Shown one piece after another: positions 1 through 37,809 of a stretch of DNA of 37,809 nucleotides. Source of the stretch: a virus; IMG/VR virus record IMGVR_UViG_3300032053_000217, positions 1 through 37,809 of that record. One strand, written 5' to 3'. The stretch's first letter is position 1. Each line of letters starts with the position of its first letter. Both the position numbers and the translations under genes were made by a program. Below the pieces are notes generated by a model. The model saw only the letters and a list, made by a program, of their open reading frames with translations, was not told where the DNA came from and did no database searches.

Positions 1-127
1 CAACTTGATTCGGCGAAAGAAGTATTCACGAATCTTGTTAAAATGTTAGGCTTGGAAATTGAGCAGGTGAAAGCGGAAAATCCCGATGCTGCGGCAAAAG
101 AATCTTTGACTCAAGTTGAGGAGCGGT
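1..127. repeat. Terminal direct overlap, left copy (circular contig)
   Basis: These 127 bases are identical to positions 37683-37809. Both lie inside one reading frame, the portal gene, which continues without a break across the join. An odd-length exact overlap of 127 bases is what a de Bruijn graph assembler leaves when a circular or circularly permuted genome closes, so this is best read as an assembly overlap and not as a biological terminal repeat. Confidence 0.95.
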
Positions 128-174
128 TTGGAAATTTTAAAGGAAAGGTTAAAGGTTTATTCAAACCTAAATGA
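1..174 (+). CDS. Portal protein, 3' part (begins at 36507)
   Basis: These are the last 57 codons of the portal gene that starts at GTG 36507, read in frame 1 to TGA 172-174. The first 42 codons are also present at the right end of the window because of the 127-base overlap. The following head gene starts inside this segment, so the two are translationally coupled. Confidence 0.88.
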   Translation, partial: QLDSAKEVFTNLVKMLGLEIEQVKAENPDAAAKESLTQVEERFGNFKGKVKGLFKPK

Positions 175-979
175 ACAGATAAGCAGGGCGAAAGCTTCCG
201 CAAAAGCGAAAGAATTAATCGCTAAAGCGAAAAGATTTGATGCTTCTTTAGATGCGGAAGTATTGAAGCAGTTGAAAGAACTGCGGAAGAATTTGATCTT
301 TGAAGTGACCACGGCTAAACGTTTTACTCCGGAATATTTAGAGAAATTAAAAAAATCTCTGGAAGAGCAAATTAGGGAATTTGAAACCCGGTTAAAAAGT
401 TACACGGCGGCCAGCCAAAACACTGCTTGGAATAATGGGCAAGAATTAGCCGATGGACCATTGAAAGCGGCCGGATTGGTCTTTGACGTTCCGCGGTTAT
501 CAACAGAACTTTTAATCTTAAACCAAGATTACACTGCGGATTTGATAACCGGGCTCCGGGATGAAACAATTAATCAGATTAACGGCGTTTTAAACCGCGG
601 AATGTTAGCAGGGAAAGACGCTTACACTGTGGGGCGGGAAATTGATTCGGAAGTTTTAGGCGTGAAGGAAGAGCGGGGAATATCCTATAAAGCCGAGAAA
701 ATTGTAAGAACAGAGAATAACCGAGTTTACAATATGTCGGAACAAGGAAGGATTGAACAGATTGCCGGTGTAATTCCGGGACTTAAAAAAGAATGGGCGG
801 CAGTAATTGATAACCGGACCCGCCCGTCGCATTTAGCGGCTCACGGTCAAATTGTTGATTGGGACGCTGATTTTGAGGTAGGCGGGCATAGCTGCAGCTA
901 TCCCAATGATCCATCGCTGCCTCCGGAAGAGGTGGTTAATTGCCGGTGCCGGATGATCCCAATTCCGCCGGAAGAATAA
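128..979 (+). CDS. MuF / SPP1 gp7-like head morphogenesis protein
   Basis: About 283 residues. MuF-family minor head proteins bind the portal and are often ejected with the DNA. The first half is coiled-coil and Lys/Glu-rich. The second half carries the family signature: a helix with VRTENNRVYN, then a W-x4-DNRTRPSHLAAHGQ block near residue 235, and a C-terminal PNDPSLPPEEVVNCRCRM. The frame opens further upstream to TTG 116, but TTG 128 is preferred because GAGGAG lies at 118-123. Either start overlaps the portal gene by about 50 bases. No toxin domain is fused to this MuF protein; the enzymatic cargo lies instead in the giant gene two positions downstream. Confidence 0.85.
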   Translation: MEILKERLKVYSNLNEQISRAKASAKAKELIAKAKRFDASLDAEVLKQLKELRKNLIFEVTTAKRFTPEYLEKLKKSLEEQIREFETRLKSYTAASQNTAWNNGQELADGPLKAAGLVFDVPRLSTELLILNQDYTADLITGLRDETINQINGVLNRGMLAGKDAYTVGREIDSEVLGVKEERGISYKAEKIVRTENNRVYNMSEQGRIEQIAGVIPGLKKEWAAVIDNRTRPSHLAAHGQIVDWDADFEVGGHSCSYPNDPSLPPEEVVNCRCRMIPIPPEE

Positions 980-997
980 AATTTAAAAGGAGGATTT

Positions 998-1411
998 ATG
1001 GGTTTTATGAAAATCGCAGAAATTAAAGATGATCCAAAGAATGAAGTGCAGGTGAAAGAAGCAAAGATTGAAGTGATTTCCGAAATGCCGGAAGTTATCG
1101 AGATTCCGGAAGTTACTAAGGCTTCCGGAGTTCCAGTCCCGCCCGTGCTGCGGGCTGAACCGGAAGAACCATCGATCAGAATAGCTGCGGAAGAAGAACA
1201 TCCATTAACCGGCCGGGCTCAGCCGGTGAAGAATCCCGTTCCTTCCCGAAAGATTGACACTATCGATCCTAAATTAATTTCACCGGAAGGACGGAAAGCA
1301 CTGGCAAAGGCAGGAATTCCTGAAACTGAGATTGTAAATTTCAAAGATTATTCTGATAAAATAGTGGTTATAACCGCCGCATTCAAGAAGGTCTCAATAA
1401 CGAAATTATGA
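998..1411 (+). CDS. Small acidic hypothetical protein between MuF and the polyprotein
   Basis: 137 residues, not recognised. ATG 998 follows AGGAGG with good spacing. The middle is Pro/Glu-rich and probably disordered (residues 25-75). The C-terminal 50 residues look folded, with a segment like DYSDKIVVITAAFKKV. Its stop TGA overlaps the ATG of the giant downstream gene as ATGA, so the two are translated together. It may act as a linker or tether for the polyprotein, but that is guesswork from position. Confidence 0.7.
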   Translation: MGFMKIAEIKDDPKNEVQVKEAKIEVISEMPEVIEIPEVTKASGVPVPPVLRAEPEEPSIRIAAEEEHPLTGRAQPVKNPVPSRKIDTIDPKLISPEGRKALAKAGIPETEIVNFKDYSDKIVVITAAFKKVSITKL

Positions 1412-4400
1412 ATGTTTTAAATATAAAATTTTTAGGCACTAAAGGCGGAATTGAGGAGCAGTCGCCGGATCATAAAAAGATGACTGCCGTCCTTTTGTCT
1501 TACAATGCCAAAAAATTACTGATCGACTTTGGGAAAGGGAATGATCCAAAAACTTTAAACGATATAAAACCGGATTTGATTCTTCTTTCCCACGGACATA
1601 CCGGCCATATCGGAGGCTTAGAAAATGGTGCGATTACATATCCGATTTATGGAATTAAAAATGCACTGGATAATATCGAAGGAGCGGATAAAACTGAGAT
1701 TAAAGCGGGTGAAGCTTTTAATCTGGCTGATTTTAAGATTATTCCGATAGAGGTTTATCATTCCGCTAAATTCCCCGCTTATGGATTTATTATTCAGGCG
1801 GACGGTCAAAAGATAGGAATTTTTACCGATGTTCTTTCCATTCCTAACCGCGCGGAAGTATTGAAAGGTTTGGATTTATACATCGGCGGCGGCTCTTCCC
1901 TTGAAAATAATTTAGTCCGGGTTGACCCGGAAACCAAACAAGCTTACGGCCATTCTTCAATCAAAACTCAAATTGTTTGGCTGAAAGAGGCTGGTATTAC
2001 TTTGGCAGTCTGGACTCATTTCGGGAAAGAAGCGGTAGAATTGGGCGGTGAAAAATTAACTCAAAAGATAAAAGAATTGAGCGGGAGTAATTTACAATCC
2101 GAGACAGCCAAAGACGGGCGGGTTTTTAATTTCCAAATTCAAGAACCCGATCAAGAAGAAGAAATTGAAGAAATTGAAGGTGATGAATTGTTAGAAGTAA
2201 TTCGGCGGCCGTTCGGAAGTCCGGGAGGAAAGAGCAGGGCTGCGGATTTAATTATTAAATATTTTCCTTCCCACGAAACTTACGTCGAATCGTTCATCGG
2301 CGGAGGAGCAATTCTTTTCCATAAGAAGCCGTCAACGGAAGAAATTATTAATGATAAAGATCCGTTAATTTCTAATGCTTATAAAGTTTTGAAAGAGGAA
2401 AATATAAATAAAATAAAAGCCGGTTCGTCGCAGAGAGATTGGAGTTTCAATGAAGAAAGAATTAGAAAATGTTTTGCGAGTAAGGAAAAGGGAATCACGG
2501 GGTATTTAGATTTTATGTATGGATTACGAAATAGTTTTTCTGGGAATAGAAAAAGCATTTCTTATACTTCTGTAAATTATGGGAAGGAACCTAACTTCTC
2601 TAATTTAGAAAAAGTTCAGGAAAGATTAAAAAATGTGAAAATTCTTAATCAGGATTGGATTTATACTTTAAAATATGATTCACCGGGTACTTTCTTTTAT
2701 TTTGATCCTCCTTATCCCGGTGAATGGCCGGGGCCGGATCTTGGTTTTGATTTAGAAAATTTTGTTAAATCCCTTTCAAAAATCAAGGGAAAATTCATTT
2801 GTTCTATAAATAAAGAAAATAAAAAATTCTTTAATGATAATGAATGGTTCTTCAAAAGTTTCAAAATGAAAAGAATATTTAAGAATTCAATGAAAGAAGA
2901 TGTAGAACTTTTAGTTTCTAATTTCCCAATGAAGAAAAATTCAGATTGGTTAGCCGAAGCAGTACTGCCGTATAGACCGGAAGAAATGACCGATGAACAA
3001 TTAGCCGATGACCGGCGAATCACGGGAGGCTGGTATTCAACTCTGAAAGACACGGGAAATTTCAAATATACCAAAGGTGAAATTTTAAATAAATTTTTAA
3101 TTCCTAATCTCACTGAGATTTTAAAACGAGGAAAAATAACTTTTCACCCCGAAGAATGGAAAGCTGCTCCCAAAGAAATTTATCTGGAAGCATTTAAAAA
3201 TATTGTCAAGGATGGTCTGTATTTAGTTCCCCCTCACGGACAGTTAATTTATGAAGGGAAGAAAACCGTCATTGTTAAAGCCCAGAATTTTGATTTAACC
3301 AAACCGAGAATTTTAATCTCCGGCGGTAAGGCGTATGGAATCGTCCGCACCGAAGAATCCCGGGTGATTTCTTTAGATGAATTTGATAAATTAAGAAACG
3401 AACATCAGATTACGAAAGAGGAGCAGACAGAACGGGGAAAGGAAATAAAAGGTTTTGCTGCCGGCCCGGTTTACTGCTTCAAAATCAGGGATTTTATTCC
3501 ATTTTCAAAACCCTTAACCATTGAGAAGCCGGAAATAGGCACTCAAGGTTTTATTAAAAATGTAAAGTTCCTTGAAGAAACCTTTGACCAAAATCTGTTC
3601 GCTCCGCAAGAATTAGAAAAACTTGACGATTTGGATTTACTCAGACGGCATGCTGATATTCATCAAATTTGGATTGAGCGCGGAGCAAGAAGTAATGATG
3701 AAGAAGTAATTAATTCTCATTTGTTCGTAGTTCAGGAATTAAAAAAGAGAGGATTAATTCACCGCCCGAAATCAGTTTTAGATGAAATAACTCTTACTCT
3801 TGGCGGTGACGGGGCTTCATTAAAAGAATTTCTTGATTTGTTTCCCAAAGAAGGTTTCTGTTTGCAAAATCCTTTGGCTTCATTGATTGGCTCAACGGTT
3901 GTTAATGGTTACGGGAATGATTACGATTTCCATATTTATGACGGAGTGCTTTCCCCAAGGGGAATGGAAGTGTTAGATTTTTGTCTGAAAGAAATGTTAC
4001 CGGAAAAAATAAAACTCAAAAGACACCTGGTTCCCTCCGCTTCGCCGTTCACCAATTATTTACCATTTTTAAAATTGAAAGTAGAACCGATTGCTAAAGA
4101 AGATTTGCAATTAATCCGTATGAGCGAAACATTTCAAGATGATGCTGAAAAATCCATTTCCGAAGATAAAATTGAAATATTCCGCTTCTTTAAACCATTG
4201 AAAGCGCAGGCCGGATATCGTGAACGAGAAGTCTATAATATTGAAGGACTGTTAAAAGTTTTACGGAAAGAGGATTATCCCTACATTGTTGACCAGAAAT
4301 TTGACGGCGAAAGAGTGGTGGTACATAAGAAAGGAAAAGAAGTGAGAATGTTTTCGGAAGACGGCGCGGAAATAAATCTAAATCAGATCCCTTCCACAGT

Positions 4401-6834
4401 TAAGGAAATTTCCGAAATCACTAATTCCGATTCTTTTATTCTTGATTGTGAAGGCGAAATCTGGTTAGGGAACAGGCATTTGGGAAGATCAGATACTTCT
4501 GGATACTTAAAATCAGAAGTTTTTAATCCTTTGATGGACAGGGGTTTCCGCCTTAATGCTTTTACGATTCTTTATGAAAATGAAAAAGATTTACATAACG
4601 AAACCGAACTGGCAAGGAAAGAATTACTTGACCAGTTTAAATCCGGGGAGCATTTGAATATTGCTGATTATATTTTAGCAAAAGATGAAAATGATATTAG
4701 AAATGCGGTTAAGGAATTTGCCAAGATAAAATATTCCGAAGGCGGAATGGTTAAAGCCGCTTCCTCCAAATATTTTTTGACCGGACAGGCGGGTTCGTGG
4801 TGGACAAAGTTTAAAAATGAAACTGATATTGATGCCGAAGTAATTGATGTTCACCCGGTCAAAGGAACGGATGCTTATAATTACCTTTGCATAATCAGGG
4901 ATGATCAAGGAAATCCTCTGCCGATTGGGCGGACTTATAATGTAAGATTTGAAGATGCGGACGGTAAACCGTTTGGTTTAAAAGCGGGCGATATCATCAG
5001 GGTTGCTTTTGTAAATCTTAACCGCTATACCGACGAGAAGACCGGAAAGATTTGGTTTAACTGGTGGGCGCCAAGACCGATTGAACCGAGAGAAGATAAA
5101 AAGAAACCAGATACGAAAGATGCCGCTGATCAGTTAGTCATTGCCACTCACGGTGAAATTGGTTTAAAACCGTTTCCCAAAAGATATGAAGAAATATTTA
5201 AGATTTTAAGAGGCGAAGTTAAGAAAGAAGATTTAATTGATTCGTTAAAAGATAATGCTGACTATATTGATTTTATGTTTAATCATTTCGGACTTGAAAA
5301 AGAAGGTATTCAAGATAATTTACTCGATGAAGCAGTCCGGGAAATGCCGGTTACGAATATTCAAATGCCGGAAGAGTTAAAGGAAATATTTAAAACTAAA
5401 AATCCTGCGGATTATCCCCTTAATTTTTCAATTTTAGTCCTTCATTTTCGCGGAAAATCTGTTCATATTGACTTCCGGCGCAAGCAAGATGAGCATTTAG
5501 AAGGTGAAACTATCTTAAATGCTTATCCCGGTCAAGTTACAGAGGCTATCGACACGATCGAAAAAGGTAAGAGATGGGCGGAAATCCTCTTGAAAGAAGG
5601 AAAATTTACCCCGGATATGAATCCAGCGAAGGTTAAAGTAGTAATTATTCCAAAAGCAGCGCAGCCGATTGATTGGTTAAATATCCGGGAAGTGAAGTTT
5701 GAACCCGGCGAAGTAGGCGCGACCCGTTTCGAGCCCGGCGTTTTCATCACTTTGGATGACGGAATTGTTTATCCTGGAGTTCAAAAACCTTATTTCAAAG
5801 AGTTTTTCTTTGCTATGAGCCGCTTTAAAGGGCGGATGGCGGAAAGATTAATTGGAGTGAGCGAAAAGTGGCTGACCCTTCCCAAAGAAGGCGTCCAGTG
5901 GCAAGCGTGGATGACGAAGAAAGACTTCCAGAACCAAGTTCCTTATCTTCTGACCAAAAGAGGACGGGAAAAGGCGGATTACGTTCCGGCTGACGGCGAG
6001 AAAGCCGTACCGCCGGAATGGGAAAAAGAAATCAAGCCTGAATTTCAGTGGTGGCTTCCAAATTTGACTGGGGAAGAGAAATTAAAACGATTAGACGATG
6101 CTTATGAAGATTTGGTAAAAAGAAATCTTTTAAAAGAAAAATCTTTGAAAGCCAATGTCAAAGAAGACATCGGAAAATTTACTTTAAGAAAAGTTTGGTG
6201 GATGGGACAACAGGTTATTCGTTCAATGCCGGTTGAAAAATGGGAAATTCTTATTGACCAAGGAAGAGATTATCTTGATGTTTTTGAATTAGAAGAAAAT
6301 CCGCTGTTCAATGAGAAAGCTCCGGGGCTTAGAAAAACTTTAAAAGAAAAAACGCCTGAGGACAAACCATTCCCTGAATGGATGAATTGGCAAGGGCATA
6401 TAATCGGAATTAATGTTACTCCCGGCAAAGGTATTATCAATAAAAATCTCGGGAATGGAGTTTATGAAGTGCAGTCTAAATCGGGAAAATACGAAACAGA
6501 AAATTTTACCTCCACCGGCACCCCGCAGGAGTTTAATTCCGGTGAAGAAATTTATTATACAGTCTTTGGGGATAAGAATTATATTTATTCTGGTAAAGGA
6601 ACCGATGGTAATCCTAATAAAGAAATTCCCATTACGGTAGAAATTCTTGATCAGGGAAAAGTTAATTGGCTGGAAGATTCCGACCAGTCCGCCTCATTAA
6701 AATTTGAAGGAAAGAATTTGAAAGGATATAGAATTTTTAAACGGACAAGTCCTGATTCATCTATCTGGGTATTTTTATTATCCCGATTACCGGGTCAAAC
6801 TAAAAAGGAGTTAAAACTATGCTTGAAAAATTAA
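1408..6834 (+). CDS. Giant polyvalent protein: MBL fold, Dam methylase, ASCH-like, NTase, DNA ligase, phosphoesterase-like
   Basis: 1,808 residues in one uninterrupted frame. Domains in order: a metallo-beta-lactamase fold (1-245) with HGHTGH at 62-67, later ligands H118, D141, H182 and H204, and Gly in place of the usual motif Asp at 66; a Dam-type N6-adenine methylase (265-507) with SFIGGGAI at 295-302 and DPPY at 433-436; an ASCH/PUA-like segment (about 604-700, EGKKTVIVK); a helical segment (730-795); a nucleotidyltransferase motif with G828-S829 and D838-x-D840; an ATP-dependent DNA ligase (about 925-1225) with KFDGER at 964-969, DCEGE at 1013-1017, EGGMVK at 1111-1116, WWTKFK at 1131-1136 and an OB-like part after that; and a LigD phosphoesterase-like block (HFRGKSVHIDFR at 1346-1357). 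The last 450 residues are unassigned. It sits between MuF and capsid genes, as polyvalent proteins that enter the host with phage DNA often do. The role, protecting or repairing incoming DNA, is inferred. Confidence 0.85.
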   Translation: MNVLNIKFLGTKGGIEEQSPDHKKMTAVLLSYNAKKLLIDFGKGNDPKTLNDIKPDLILLSHGHTGHIGGLENGAITYPIYGIKNALDNIEGADKTEIKAGEAFNLADFKIIPIEVYHSAKFPAYGFIIQADGQKIGIFTDVLSIPNRAEVLKGLDLYIGGGSSLENNLVRVDPETKQAYGHSSIKTQIVWLKEAGITLAVWTHFGKEAVELGGEKLTQKIKELSGSNLQSETAKDGRVFNFQIQEPDQEEEIEEIEGDELLEVIRRPFGSPGGKSRAADLIIKYFPSHETYVESFIGGGAILFHKKPSTEEIINDKDPLISNAYKVLKEENINKIKAGSSQRDWSFNEERIRKCFASKEKGITGYLDFMYGLRNSFSGNRKSISYTSVNYGKEPNFSNLEKVQERLKNVKILNQDWIYTLKYDSPGTFFYFDPPYPGEWPGPDLGFDLENFVKSLSKIKGKFICSINKENKKFFNDNEWFFKSFKMKRIFKNSMKEDVELLVSNFPMKKNSDWLAEAVLPYRPEEMTDEQLADDRRITGGWYSTLKDTGNFKYTKGEILNKFLIPNLTEILKRGKITFHPEEWKAAPKEIYLEAFKNIVKDGLYLVPPHGQLIYEGKKTVIVKAQNFDLTKPRILISGGKAYGIVRTEESRVISLDEFDKLRNEHQITKEEQTERGKEIKGFAAGPVYCFKIRDFIPFSKPLTIEKPEIGTQGFIKNVKFLEETFDQNLFAPQELEKLDDLDLLRRHADIHQIWIERGARSNDEEVINSHLFVVQELKKRGLIHRPKSVLDEITLTLGGDGASLKEFLDLFPKEGFCLQNPLASLIGSTVVNGYGNDYDFHIYDGVLSPRGMEVLDFCLKEMLPEKIKLKRHLVPSASPFTNYLPFLKLKVEPIAKEDLQLIRMSETFQDDAEKSISEDKIEIFRFFKPLKAQAGYREREVYNIEGLLKVLRKEDYPYIVDQKFDGERVVVHKKGKEVRMFSEDGAEINLNQIPSTVKEISEITNSDSFILDCEGEIWLGNRHLGRSDTSGYLKSEVFNPLMDRGFRLNAFTILYENEKDLHNETELARKELLDQFKSGEHLNIADYILAKDENDIRNAVKEFAKIKYSEGGMVKAASSKYFLTGQAGSWWTKFKNETDIDAEVIDVHPVKGTDAYNYLCIIRDDQGNPLPIGRTYNVRFEDADGKPFGLKAGDIIRVAFVNLNRYTDEKTGKIWFNWWAPRPIEPREDKKKPDTKDAADQLVIATHGEIGLKPFPKRYEEIFKILRGEVKKEDLIDSLKDNADYIDFMFNHFGLEKEGIQDNLLDEAVREMPVTNIQMPEELKEIFKTKNPADYPLNFSILVLHFRGKSVHIDFRRKQDEHLEGETILNAYPGQVTEAIDTIEKGKRWAEILLKEGKFTPDMNPAKVKVVIIPKAAQPIDWLNIREVKFEPGEVGATRFEPGVFITLDDGIVYPGVQKPYFKEFFFAMSRFKGRMAERLIGVSEKWLTLPKEGVQWQAWMTKKDFQNQVPYLLTKRGREKADYVPADGEKAVPPEWEKEIKPEFQWWLPNLTGEEKLKRLDDAYEDLVKRNLLKEKSLKANVKEDIGKFTLRKVWWMGQQVIRSMPVEKWEILIDQGRDYLDVFELEENPLFNEKAPGLRKTLKEKTPEDKPFPEWMNWQGHIIGINVTPGKGIINKNLGNGVYEVQSKSGKYETENFTSTGTPQEFNSGEEIYYTVFGDKNYIYSGKGTDGNPNKEIPITVEILDQGKVNWLEDSDQSASLKFEGKNLKGYRIFKRTSPDSSIWVFLLSRLPGQTKKELKLCLKN

Positions 6835-13087: not shown

Positions 13088-14185
13088 ATGAATTGCTTTG
13101 CAACTTTAGACGAATCGGGAATTGTGAAATCAAAATTTACTTTTAATAGTAAAAACTTGATTGAAAGAGCAGGGCTTATTTCTTGCCCCCAAGAAATCCC
13201 GTTGGGATATGACGCTGTCCCCGATACGAGATTGATTTTTGACCGAAGCAAATATATTTTAAAAAGTTTGAAAAATGTTAAGTTACGAAATAATTTAAGA
13301 ATTTTAATTTTACGAAAAGCGGCTCGCGGCGATTTATTGATTATGCACAGCGCTTTGGAATATTTTTTGGAAGAAAATAAAAGTTTAAACGTCGAAATTG
13401 CTGTAGCGATAGACGAACCGATTTTGGGAACTTTGACTTATTTTGAAAATGTGAAAGAATTAGTTAATCCTATAAAACCTATCGAGTCAGGATTTGATTT
13501 AGTTTTAGATGTAAGAAATTCTTACACTTGGTGGCAGGATGTAGCAGAAACTAAAACCTTATTCGGCGCTTATCTCAAACGGTTAGGATTAGACTGGAAA
13601 GATAAAAGATATAAACAGGATTTGAAAATAATTTATTCGGAAAAGGAAATAGAAAAAGCCAAACAATTACTGAATCAATTAGATTTTAAGAAAGAGGATA
13701 TAGTTATCGGCTTGCAGCCATTTTCCAGACGTTCGGAAAGTCAATGGCATTACTGGAAAGAATTGGTCAATTATTTAAGCCAAAAATATAATACAAAATT
13801 TCTCGTTTTCGGAACTGCGAAGGATAAGTTAAATTTTGAAAATACTAATTTATTTTCTTTGATAGGCAAAACCAGTTTCTTAGAAGCGTCGGCAGTTATA
13901 GGTTCGCGGTGCAATGGCTTTATTTCTATTGATAGTGGTTTGCTTTATTCCGCTTTAGCCCAAAAAATTCCAAGTTTGAATATTTGGTGCCGGTACGATT
14001 GGAAACAACATTTGCCCGATTTAGAATATTCTTTTCCAATTCAATCGCCAGTTGAATGCTCTCCTTGCTGCTGGGTAAAAGCAAAAAGAGAGTGTAAAGG
14101 AAGGGACTATTGCATTGACGGAGTTACCGTTGAATTTTTAGAGCCAAAGATTAAAGAGTTTGTGGAGTTTGTACTTAAAAAATGA
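13088..14185 (+). CDS. Glycosyltransferase family 9-like (heptosyltransferase-type)
   Basis: 365 residues. Residues from about 70 on resemble the GT-B fold of ADP-heptose:LPS heptosyltransferases: RILILRKAARGDLLIMHSALEYF at the start of the first Rossmann domain, then VIGLQPFSRRSESQWHYW, the segment SLIGKTSFLEASAVI, and the SIDSGLLYSALAQKIP block that corresponds to the family's DSG-x2-H-x2-A motif, though the His is replaced by Tyr. The N-terminal 60 residues are extra. It overlaps the next glycosyltransferase as ATGA. Lying among fibre genes, it may glycosylate virion proteins rather than host LPS. Confidence 0.72.
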   Translation: MNCFATLDESGIVKSKFTFNSKNLIERAGLISCPQEIPLGYDAVPDTRLIFDRSKYILKSLKNVKLRNNLRILILRKAARGDLLIMHSALEYFLEENKSLNVEIAVAIDEPILGTLTYFENVKELVNPIKPIESGFDLVLDVRNSYTWWQDVAETKTLFGAYLKRLGLDWKDKRYKQDLKIIYSEKEIEKAKQLLNQLDFKKEDIVIGLQPFSRRSESQWHYWKELVNYLSQKYNTKFLVFGTAKDKLNFENTNLFSLIGKTSFLEASAVIGSRCNGFISIDSGLLYSALAQKIPSLNIWCRYDWKQHLPDLEYSFPIQSPVECSPCCWVKAKRECKGRDYCIDGVTVEFLEPKIKEFVEFVLKK

Positions 14186-34780: not shown

Positions 34781-36544
34781 ATGATTAAACGGGGCACAGC
34801 GTATAAGGCAAATAAAAATGGAGTAGCGCTTAACAAAATTAAGATGGCTCAGGATCTGCGTAAGCGCGGGTACAAAATAGATGAGATAGCGCATAAAATC
34901 AAGGTAAGCACGAGAAGTGTTAGTAATTATTTACAGGTTGACTTACTGGATTTATGGGAGCGGGAAGAAAACCCGTTTCTCAAAGTTGAAGCGGCGGATT
35001 TAAGCATCGGGATACTGGAGTTCGTGGAGAGCGAAAAATATTTAGGTGTAAAACTTTTCCCGATGCAAAGATTGATATTAAAATGTTTTTACGGTTTGGT
35101 TTTAACTGATGAAGAAAAAGCCGTGATGAAACGGCTGAAGAAAGAGGATAAGACCACTTGGCGGGAGGGGGAGCATTACGTTGAATTAGTTTTGAACGTG
35201 GGAATGAAGGGCACAAAAACTACGATTGCAGGAATTATAGCTTTAATTGAGGAATTTGAGTTGTACCGCAAAGGTGATTTTGAAAAGCATTATGGGTTCC
35301 CGCCGGGTAAGGAAGCATATATTATCAATGTGGCCACCAATGCCGATCAGGCTAAATCGACAATATTCGCCCAGATAAAAGGTTTGATCCGAAACTCGCC
35401 GTTTTTCCGGACCCGCAGATATGAAGAGCGGGATGATGAATACGAATTTAGGGATCATAACGTTTTTTTAAAATCACTGCATTCCAATTCGGCTTCCATT
35501 GTGGGATTGGCCTGCAAAGCAGTTTTGCTTGATGAGTTATCCCGGTTCAAGGACAAAGGCGGGAAATATTCCGCCGATGTGGTTTATGATTCGCTCACCC
35601 ACTCAATCCAGCCGTTCGGCGAGGATGGGAAAATAATTGACATTTCCTCGCCTTTATTTGAGGGGGATAAAATCTGCTCGCTTTATGAGCAGTCCAAAGA
35701 AATAAATGGAATGCTCGGCTTTCATTTGCCCACGTGGGAAATTAATTTGAACCTGCCGTTTGAATCCGAAACGATGCAGCGGGAACTGAAAAAAAATCCG
35801 GAATCTTTCTGGCGTGATTTTGGGGCCAGGCCTTCCCGTTCGGTCGAATCCTATTGCCGCCTGCCTAATAAGATTGATGAGCTTTTTTCCCGGGGCCGGC
35901 TGATGAGTATGGAAAACCCGATGAATATAAAAGGGCAGTTAAAAGATTCATTTGCCGGTAAACCGGGGATGGAATATTATTTGCACGGAGATCCAGCCGC
36001 CAGGAACGACGCTTACGGCTTATGTTTAGGCCACATCGAAAAAAACATCAAAATTCTTGATTTAGTTTATGCTTTCGATGCGCCGCAAGGCGGCGAGATA
36101 AATCTTGAAGAAGTAAGTAATTTTATTCTTGAATTATACCGCCGGTTTATAATCAAGAAATTCACTTTTGATACTTGGCAGGCTGCGGAGATAATGCAGA
36201 AACTTGAGAGGCGGGGAGCCTTGGTTGAAGAATTAAAAATATCCAAACAAGTTTATGATGTCGGCAAAGAAGAAATTTATGCCGGGAATGTTGCCAGTTA
36301 CCCTAACTTAAGGGCGGCTAATGAATGGAAAGACTTAGAATTAATCAGCGGGCAGAAAGTTGACCACCGTAAAGGTAAATCAAAGGATATTGCTGATTCA
36401 ATGGCTGGAGTAATTTTTCATTTGGCCGTGAATCCGATTGTCATACCGGTGATGGTTTCTAAAGACCCCGGCGATGATTGGTACCAAGCGAAAATAGGAG
36501 GGATTTGTGGAGAAATCAGAGAGTCGCTCACTGAGAGAAGATAA
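34781..36544 (+). CDS. terL: Large terminase subunit (TerL) with fused N-terminal helix-turn-helix
   Basis: 587 residues. It is the ATPase-nuclease motor that packages DNA. The ATPase has a Walker A-like NVGMKGTKTT (139-148) and Walker B AVLLDE (247-252). The nuclease has D404 (LHGDPAARND), D464 (KFTFDTWQ) and D536 (HRKGKSKDIADS). Residues 18-50 form a helix-turn-helix (KMAQDLRKRGYKIDEIAHKIKVSTRSVSNYL), the DNA-binding part usually found in the small terminase. No separate small terminase gene is visible, so the fusion may do both jobs. ATG 34781 follows AGGTTAGGA. Confidence 0.9.
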   Translation: MIKRGTAYKANKNGVALNKIKMAQDLRKRGYKIDEIAHKIKVSTRSVSNYLQVDLLDLWEREENPFLKVEAADLSIGILEFVESEKYLGVKLFPMQRLILKCFYGLVLTDEEKAVMKRLKKEDKTTWREGEHYVELVLNVGMKGTKTTIAGIIALIEEFELYRKGDFEKHYGFPPGKEAYIINVATNADQAKSTIFAQIKGLIRNSPFFRTRRYEERDDEYEFRDHNVFLKSLHSNSASIVGLACKAVLLDELSRFKDKGGKYSADVVYDSLTHSIQPFGEDGKIIDISSPLFEGDKICSLYEQSKEINGMLGFHLPTWEINLNLPFESETMQRELKKNPESFWRDFGARPSRSVESYCRLPNKIDELFSRGRLMSMENPMNIKGQLKDSFAGKPGMEYYLHGDPAARNDAYGLCLGHIEKNIKILDLVYAFDAPQGGEINLEEVSNFILELYRRFIIKKFTFDTWQAAEIMQKLERRGALVEELKISKQVYDVGKEEIYAGNVASYPNLRAANEWKDLELISGQKVDHRKGKSKDIADSMAGVIFHLAVNPIVIPVMVSKDPGDDWYQAKIGGICGEIRESLTERR

Positions 36545-37809
36545 GCCTAATCAGGATGACGGCTACCGCCGGGTGATTGGCGGCTTAACCCAGGTAACCC
36601 GCGATTTGAACCCGATGACGCAGGAAAATATGCTTAAAATCGTCTATCGGCTTTATATGACCGATCCGCTGGCCCGCAGAATTTTAGAAATTTCCCGGGA
36701 TTTTGCTATTGGCGACGGCTTATCCTTTTCCGCGGTTGATCCAAAAGTTTACGAAATACTTTATGATTTCTGGTATGATCCGGTTAATGATTGGTCGATG
36801 AAGCAATACCGCCGCTGCCTTGAATTAGGTCTTTACGGCGAACAGATTTATCCGGTTTTTGTCAATGAAGTGAACGGCCGGGTGCGGATGGGCTACATTG
36901 ATCCCCTAAACATTTCCAAAATTGAAAATAATCCGGAAAATGCCGAAGAGCCGCGCTGGGTTTTTGTCACGTTCAAAGAAAAACCTTACCGGGTAATTTA
37001 TACCGACTTAGATCCTCAATCTCCGACCTACGACCGCTTAGTGGGTGATGTATTTTTCTTCGCCATTAATAATGTAACCTTGGGAACCCGCGGGATATCG
37101 GATTTACTGCCGTTAGCCGATTTTATTGACGCTTACGGCCAATATTTATTCAATTTGCTCGAACGATCAAGACTTTTGAATGCTTTTATCTGGGACGTGA
37201 CGGTTGAGGGAATGAATCAAGATCAGATTGATGAATATATCGCTAAATTCGGCACGCCGAGGCCGGGTGCGGTCAGGGCGCATAATGAAAAGATTAAATG
37301 GGACGTGGTGTCGCCGAAACTTGAGGCCGCGGATGCTTCCGAAGGGGCAAAACTTTTTCTCACCCATATTTTAGGCGGTGCCGGGCTGCCTTTGCATTAC
37401 TACGCAATGGGCGAGGGAACCACGAGGGCTACCGCGCTTGAAATGGCGGAGCCGGTATTAAAAAGGGCGCAGTCCCGGCGGAAAACATTCGTTTCAATGA
37501 TTGAAAAAATATTTGATTTTGTTATAGACCAAGCCATTATTCACGGAACTCTTCCAGAAAATGTTGATGCCAGATATTCGATCATTATTCCGCCGATTAC
37601 TAAAAGGGATTTGGTTAATCTTTCTTCGGCAATGGCGCAGATTACCACTGCCTTAAGTTTAGCGGAAGATAAAAAATGGATCCAACTTGATTCGGCGAAA
37701 GAAGTATTCACGAATCTTGTTAAAATGTTAGGCTTGGAAATTGAGCAGGTGAAAGCGGAAAATCCCGATGCTGCGGCAAAAGAATCTTTGACTCAAGTTG
37801 AGGAGCGGT
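36507..37809 (+). CDS. Portal protein, 5' part (continues at position 1)
   Basis: The gene starts at GTG 36507 with an AGGAGG ribosome binding site five bases upstream and overlaps the terminase stop at 36544. It runs in frame off the window end and resumes at position 1, ending at TGA 172-174, for about 449 residues. Portal proteins form the dodecameric ring at the capsid vertex through which DNA is packaged and ejected. Visible support: the order terminase-portal-MuF, the early segment with RRILEISRDFAIGDG, the segment IDPLNISKIENNPEN, and a helical region with TRATALEMAEPV near residue 310, typical of portal stem and wing regions. The coiled, charged C-terminus ends VKGLFKPK. The call rests on this pattern and on synteny, not on a database search. 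Confidence 0.88.
   Translation, partial: MEKSESRSLREDKPNQDDGYRRVIGGLTQVTRDLNPMTQENMLKIVYRLYMTDPLARRILEISRDFAIGDGLSFSAVDPKVYEILYDFWYDPVNDWSMKQYRRCLELGLYGEQIYPVFVNEVNGRVRMGYIDPLNISKIENNPENAEEPRWVFVTFKEKPYRVIYTDLDPQSPTYDRLVGDVFFFAINNVTLGTRGISDLLPLADFIDAYGQYLFNLLERSRLLNAFIWDVTVEGMNQDQIDEYIAKFGTPRPGAVRAHNEKIKWDVVSPKLEAADASEGAKLFLTHILGGAGLPLHYYAMGEGTTRATALEMAEPVLKRAQSRRKTFVSMIEKIFDFVIDQAIIHGTLPENVDARYSIIIPPITKRDLVNLSSAMAQITTALSLAEDKKWIQLDSAKEVFTNLVKMLGLEIEQVKAENPDAAAKESLTQVEER
37683..37809. repeat. Terminal direct overlap, right copy (circular contig)
   Basis: Exact copy of positions 1-127. Removing one copy gives a circle of 37,682 bp. The physical ends of the packaged DNA cannot be read from this overlap. 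Confidence 0.95.

Follow-up and report, generated by a model that had tools for sequence, protein, structure and literature searches.

What would a single reading frame of 1,808 residues, here called P0001, be doing among the head genes of a virus? The window, i.e. the whole stretch of DNA analysed, is an entire IMG/VR record of 37,809 nucleotides and represents a 37.8-kb virus genome. Since both ends carry an exact 127-base direct repeat (1–127 and 37683–37809), with the portal gene running across it, the genome is probably complete, and it is probably circular or circularly permuted. The head module runs in the order terminase, portal, MuF, 137-aa ORF, P0001 and protease–capsid fusion (Table 1). 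The start of the P0001 ORF shares 4 bases (ATGA) with the ORF before it, and its end shares 16 bases with the downstream protease–capsid ORF. Given that it contains no stop and that the longest stop-to-stop frame in randomised windows (first-order Markov, n=50) was 234 aa (mean 154), the single frame claimed in the preliminary description stands, and so does its place between the MuF and capsid protease genes (PF04233 and PF25209, respectively), with the 137-aa ORF intervening after MuF. Over ~440 aa, the portal product is 34 % identical to L006:1507-2994 (L numbers denote loci of relatives, see below), and the protease–capsid product matches phrog_4523 (5.2e-58) and phrog_15531 (5e-11) and is 36 % identical to its L003 homologue. 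The best match of the latter product is a Microcystis phage, whereas the ligase of P0001 groups with archaeal-virus homologues in the tree; with the host evidence split in this way, the virus would infect either bacteria or archaea.

Table 1. Features of the head module and of P0001 (residues are those of P0001, positions those of the window)
Feature	Residues	Position	Strand	Basis or remark
Terminase		34781-36544		
Portal protein gene		36507..37809, on over terminal repeat to base 174	+	
MuF head morphogenesis protein		116..979	+	PF04233, 1.1e-14; 29 % identity to L006 MuF
137-aa ORF between MuF and P0001		998..1411	+	No family match
P0001, multi-domain protein		1408..6834	+	ATG to stop, 1,808 aa, no internal stop
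MBL fold, RNase Z/PhnP phosphodiesterase type	4-238	1417..2121	+	PF12706 at 54-205, E 5.9e-9
Dam-type N6-adenine DNA methyltransferase	269-510	2212..2937	+	PF02086 at 272-438, E 1.8e-16
ASCH domain (PPHGQLIYEGKKTVIVK)	601-726	3208..3585	+	AlphaFold2 model
Helical module (LLRRHADIH..SHLFVVQELKKRGLIH)	728-800	3589..3807	+	BLAST to relatives
Minimal Pol-beta-type NTase	797-930	3796..4197	+	Alignments; fold match to 1no5, Z 5.4
ATP-dependent DNA ligase adenylation domain	936-1140	4213..4827	+	PF01068 at 950-1136, E 4e-19
Ligase OB domain	1141-1235 (1137-1248 for the fold match)	4828..5112	+	Predicted model; 3gde, Z 10.5
PE1, divergent LigD 3'-phosphoesterase-like domain	1342-1540	5431..6027	+	Alignment
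PE2, LigD 3'-phosphoesterase fold	~1588-1794	6169..6789	+	Model; 3p43, Z 15.0
Small OB/SH3-like beta insertion inside PE2	1669-1731	6412..6600	+	Model and alignment
Head maturation protease and major capsid fusion, 742 aa		6819..9047	+	PF25209, 2.6e-38

Along its chain, P0001 comprises a metallo-beta-lactamase (MBL) fold, a Dam-type methylase, an ASCH domain, a helical module, a nucleotidyltransferase (NTase), a ligase adenylation domain, an OB domain and two phosphoesterase domains (PE1 and PE2). The MBL, methylase and ligase, all named in the preliminary description, score above the Pfam cut-off. By profile, the MBL matches 1zkp (2.1e-13), RNase Z 1y44 (3.3e-11) and Apyc1 7u2r (2.3e-5), and on these E-values an Apyc1-specific identity is not favoured over the RNase Z/PhnP relatives. 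It shares 29 % identity with the corresponding domain of L010 and 26 % with that of L015. Its metal residues are H62-x-H64-x-G66-H67, H118, D141 and H204; compared with the HxHxDH motif of RNase Z/PhnP-type MBLs, D66 is replaced by G, i.e. one metal ligand is gone. The methylase also matches phrog_56 (6.6e-40) and TIGR00571 (1.6e-20, under the curated cut-off of that model), and its motifs DPPY (433–436) and FIGGG (296–300, F-x-G-x-G) are intact. While Pfam placed an ASCH domain below its cut-off (E 0.0082, on a piece of P0001), the predicted fold confirms the assignment (Z 11.5 to 2dp9 and 10.4 to ZmASCH; Foldseek 3.5e-7), and homologues of this domain are found in L003, L006, L009, L010, L015 and L019. 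The helical module that follows recurs in at least eight relatives and is present twice in L015, where its match to the pyrimidine-dimer glycosylase family is borderline.

In the core of the protein, the NTase keeps the motif G828-S829...D838-x-D840, so that the motif reported earlier is indeed there, but the third Asp of minimal Pol-beta NTases is replaced by K889 and the fold match to minimal NTases is weak. The ligase matches the archaeal ligase 3rr5 (2.9e-32) and the LigD structure 1vs0 (1e-14) by profile. Its motifs are intact, i.e. K964-F-D-G, DCEGE (1013–1017), SEGGMVK (1110–1116) and KFK (1134–1136), and KFDG is present in all relatives with sequence spanning the site. No second ligase-domain match was found elsewhere in the virus genome. 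Profile searches and structure prediction of the C-terminal residues, which the preliminary description had suggested, gave the OB and PE folds. The predicted structures of parts of P0001 have intermediate confidence (mean pLDDT 68.8 and 72.8), and the VIA-align lists, being a re-check of Foldseek's own matches, cannot demonstrate absence.

The C-terminal third had been described as a LigD phosphoesterase-like segment followed by 450 unassigned residues. The former is PE1, the more divergent of the two PE domains and supported by its signature, the L010 matches and hhalign, but most of residues 1342–1800 can now be assigned to two PE-type folds, and a new fold for the last ~450 residues is ruled out by the PE profile match and the superposition on 3P43. 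The family profile, built from 16 sequences, matches this archaeal PE structure at E 3.7e-8, and 3P4H is matched by sequence as well. PE1 keeps H1346.RG.S.H1353.D1355.R1357 (signature HxRGxSxHxDxR); its counterpart in L010 matches TIGR02777 (2.4e-5) and PF13298 (0.0032), the latter giving no match in P0001 itself, and hhalign of PE1 to a third PE copy gave 3e-5. Such third PE-like copies, with an intact His/His/Asp/Arg motif, are located in L010 (12903–13352) and L013 (12134–12619). PE2 has a profile match of 9.7e-7, and its model superposes on 3p43 with 2.2 Å over 120 residues and on 3p4h with Z 14.9. The insertion inside PE2 is unique to P0001 and missing in all relatives in the alignment; in the model (region 535–597) it resembles eIF5A 1eif, albeit weakly (Z 7.8).

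The catalytic set of the LigD PE consists of His42, His48, Asp50, Arg52, His84 and Tyr88, and mutation at the H84 or Y88 position abolishes activity (PMC8656161). PE1 has the first four of these at shifted spacing, with Q1419 and W1423 at the positions of H84 and Y88, and PE2 has lost the His/Asp/Arg set in the alignment. Since the active sites of the MBL, NTase, PE1 and PE2 depart from consensus, ‘end-cleaning’ by P0001 is uncertain. Among relatives, intact PE and MBL motifs are kept.

As a single query against viral contigs, P0001 found no relatives, and a profile from its alignment with ANMV-1 was required to find those in IMG/VR. This search returned 13 loci, and a larger alignment gave the identical 13. 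Five MAG contigs were also matched, archaeal or other (Methanosarcinales, Methanophagales, Euryarchaeota and WOR-3 labels; short contigs, for which misbinning is possible), together with more core matches in further genomes of the same phylum. In one Methanosarcinales MAG (G002, contigs C138, C184 and C107), four members of the family were matched, some of them interrupted by in-frame stops. Altogether, relatives occupy the same head-module place in some twenty further sequences, viral or archaeal. The domain set, which was unfamiliar to the preliminary description, is thus not a one-off, and a unique architecture is ruled out by the recurrence of the core in ANMV-1, the IMG/VR loci and the MAG contigs. 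In ANMV-1, a virus of ANME archaea, the protein AJP62006 (KP703175; ‘ATP-dependent DNA ligase’) shows homology that spans the NTase, the ligase with its OB domain and the two PE domains (29 % identity over 869 columns, 9e-81), but unlike P0001 this 866-aa protein has no MBL, methylase or ASCH domain. The text of the ANMV-1 paper does not mention a ligase, and a literature search on ANME-virus ligases returned nothing specific.

In the ligase tree, P0001 clusters with L003 and L006 (99/97), and their sister is the archaeal-MAG/ANMV-1 group (98/95). Because these two closest relatives begin at the ASCH region, without the first ~510 residues that hold the MBL and methylase, both domains are most simply read as lineage-specific and added to a core that is conserved. 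The fronts of the other relatives vary as well, with a C5 or N6 methylase, NUDIX or MBL domain; L011 additionally carries a uracil-DNA glycosylase, and in L015 the MBL is placed behind the ligase. Front ends are thus swapped around a ligase core that recurs across distant viruses. In L003, the nearest relative, the polyprotein is split (867–3974 and 3784–4659), with a frame change within PE1 that may be due to sequencing error, decay or a programmed shift.

P0001 has the ATP-dependent ligase and the PE fold in common with LigD and the stand-alone archaeal PE (3P43, 3P4H). It differs from LigD in its order NTase-Lig-OB-PE1-PE2, apparently with a minimal NTase where LigD has a primase-type polymerase, for which Pfam and NCBIfam gave no match in P0001. 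Since no match to a Ku partner (PF02735) was found in the virus genome (a host Ku being possible), the likeness to LigD appears to be one of functional analogy, not of membership. It is conceivable, if doubtful, that P0001 is a viral LigD analogue independently assembled from a minimal NTase, a ligase and tandem PE domains, which would be packaged and would repair or circularise the genome at entry, with lineage-specific front domains serving anti-defence; if true, this analogue would be widespread in the head modules of archaeal and bacterial viruses. A virion-borne end-joining machine proper, whose LigD-like NTase-ligase-OB-PE core would circularise or rejoin the genome ends at entry independently of Ku, is unlikely: ligase, NTase and PE folds do share one chain, the ligase does match LigD, and successful infection by the mycobacteriophages Omega and Corndog, which encode Ku, draws on host LigD (PMC7719229), but Ku is missing from the matches, the NTase is apparently of a minimal type instead of the LigD polymerase type and lacks its third Asp, the PE sites are altered, and the uracil glycosylase and NUDIX domains of relatives suit base-damage repair better.

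Where neighbours of the core are identifiable, they encode the portal, MuF, the prohead protease or the capsid. The portal gene lies immediately upstream in ANMV-1, L015, L017 and L019; in L009 it is two genes upstream, the intervening ORF coding for an MBL. MuF is found upstream in the P0001 locus and L006, and the protease–capsid gene downstream in the P0001 locus and L003. In L004, L007, L008 and L012, an S78 prohead protease is fused at the C-terminus, and in L011 it is the second ORF downstream, past a methylase-like ORF. For L010, L013 and L014, no head gene was identified adjoining the core.

This arrangement bears on whether P0001 is an ordinary replication ligase with accessory domains, expressed late or early, its gene simply lying among structural genes, and never packaged. 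ATP-dependent ligases are part of the replication machinery encoded by many phages (PMC7824862), and adenylation plus OB domains make up the usual minimal ligase; still, such a role is distinctly improbable, as the head-module place and the fusion or closeness to a prohead protease recur in distant groups and no replication genes lie beside the P0001 ORF. Least probable is that P0001 serves mainly in capsid assembly or as a kind of scaffold, several of its enzyme folds having decayed to leave DNA binding only, for although consensus residues are lost in PE2 and partly in the MBL, NTase and PE1, the methylase still has its DPPY and the ligase its KFDG and further motifs, and relatives retain intact PE and MBL motifs.

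The recurrent head-module place, the fusion or closeness to the protease, the intact KFDG and DPPY motifs, and the uracil-DNA glycosylase, NUDIX and methyltransferase domains of relatives rather suggest that P0001 is a tailed-virus head-module protein of the polyvalent type, which would be packaged and would repair, seal and mask incoming DNA. We consider this the probable reading, although the substitutions in PE2, PE1, MBL and NTase, and the three relatives without an identified head neighbour, speak against it. The preliminary description had already pointed to a polyvalent protein and to a kit that would seal, repair and mask DNA; the former is partly supported, by domain content, head position and the protease arrangement in relatives, while the latter fits the repair and methylation domains of relatives but is doubtful in its end-cleaning part.

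According to the survey by Iyer et al. (2017; PMC5512222), polyvalent proteins combine disparate enzyme domains in one chain and are thought to enter with the DNA, those of phages are encoded near virion genes, and an assemblin-like protease is always C-terminal. P0001 likewise unites disparate activities in one polypeptide encoded near virion structural genes; the protease is C-terminal in the four relatives with an S78 fusion, and at P0001 it is the neighbouring gene. N6A methylase and Pol-beta NTase domains are common to P0001 and the surveyed proteins, whereas the survey's main text names no DNA ligase, ASCH or beta-lactamase fold, all of which P0001 has. Neither the zincin MPTase nor the ArdC-N domain of polyvalent proteins was found in P0001. 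Moreover, the surveyed proteins of >1,000 aa are almost all bacterial, whereas several P0001 relatives are archaeal. Lactococcus ul36-group phages and Rhizobium phage RHph_Y1_11 also have a methyltransferase and a prohead protease under one match in the head module (annotation as deposited), but no ligase or PE match is reported for these proteins, and at P0001 the protease is a separate neighbour.

As a polyvalent-type protein, P0001 would be produced along with the other head-module proteins (portal, MuF, protease and capsid) and enclosed within the prohead, where the neighbouring prohead protease may cut it; the T4 prohead protease, which processes internal head proteins, is a precedent (PMC5694885). 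It would then enter the cell alongside the viral DNA. Judging from families and motifs, the ligase would seal nicks or join ends, the PE and NTase domains would bind, clean or extend 3' ends as far as they are active, the Dam-type methylase would protect viral DNA from restriction by modifying it, and the targets of the MBL and ASCH domains may be nucleic acid or signalling nucleotides. If packaged, P0001 would represent a virus-borne repair and sealing kit working ahead of viral gene expression, including in viruses of methane-cycling archaea. It would link capsid assembly, with the C-terminal prohead protease as a packaging and release device, to early genome protection, and would bring DNA ligase and LigD-type phosphoesterase domains within the concept of polyvalent proteins.

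Further domains lie near the core in some relatives. Directly upstream of the ligase polyprotein of L007, 5577–8297 shows Hint/intein profile matches, and upstream of the polyproteins of L004 (5426–8623) and L008 (4992–7472) there are 2H phosphoesterase domains, in L004 together with a Dam-type methylase. In the P0001 genome itself, a glycosyltransferase of family 9 (heptosyltransferase-like; PF01075, 4.8e-8) is encoded among the structural genes at 13088–14185.
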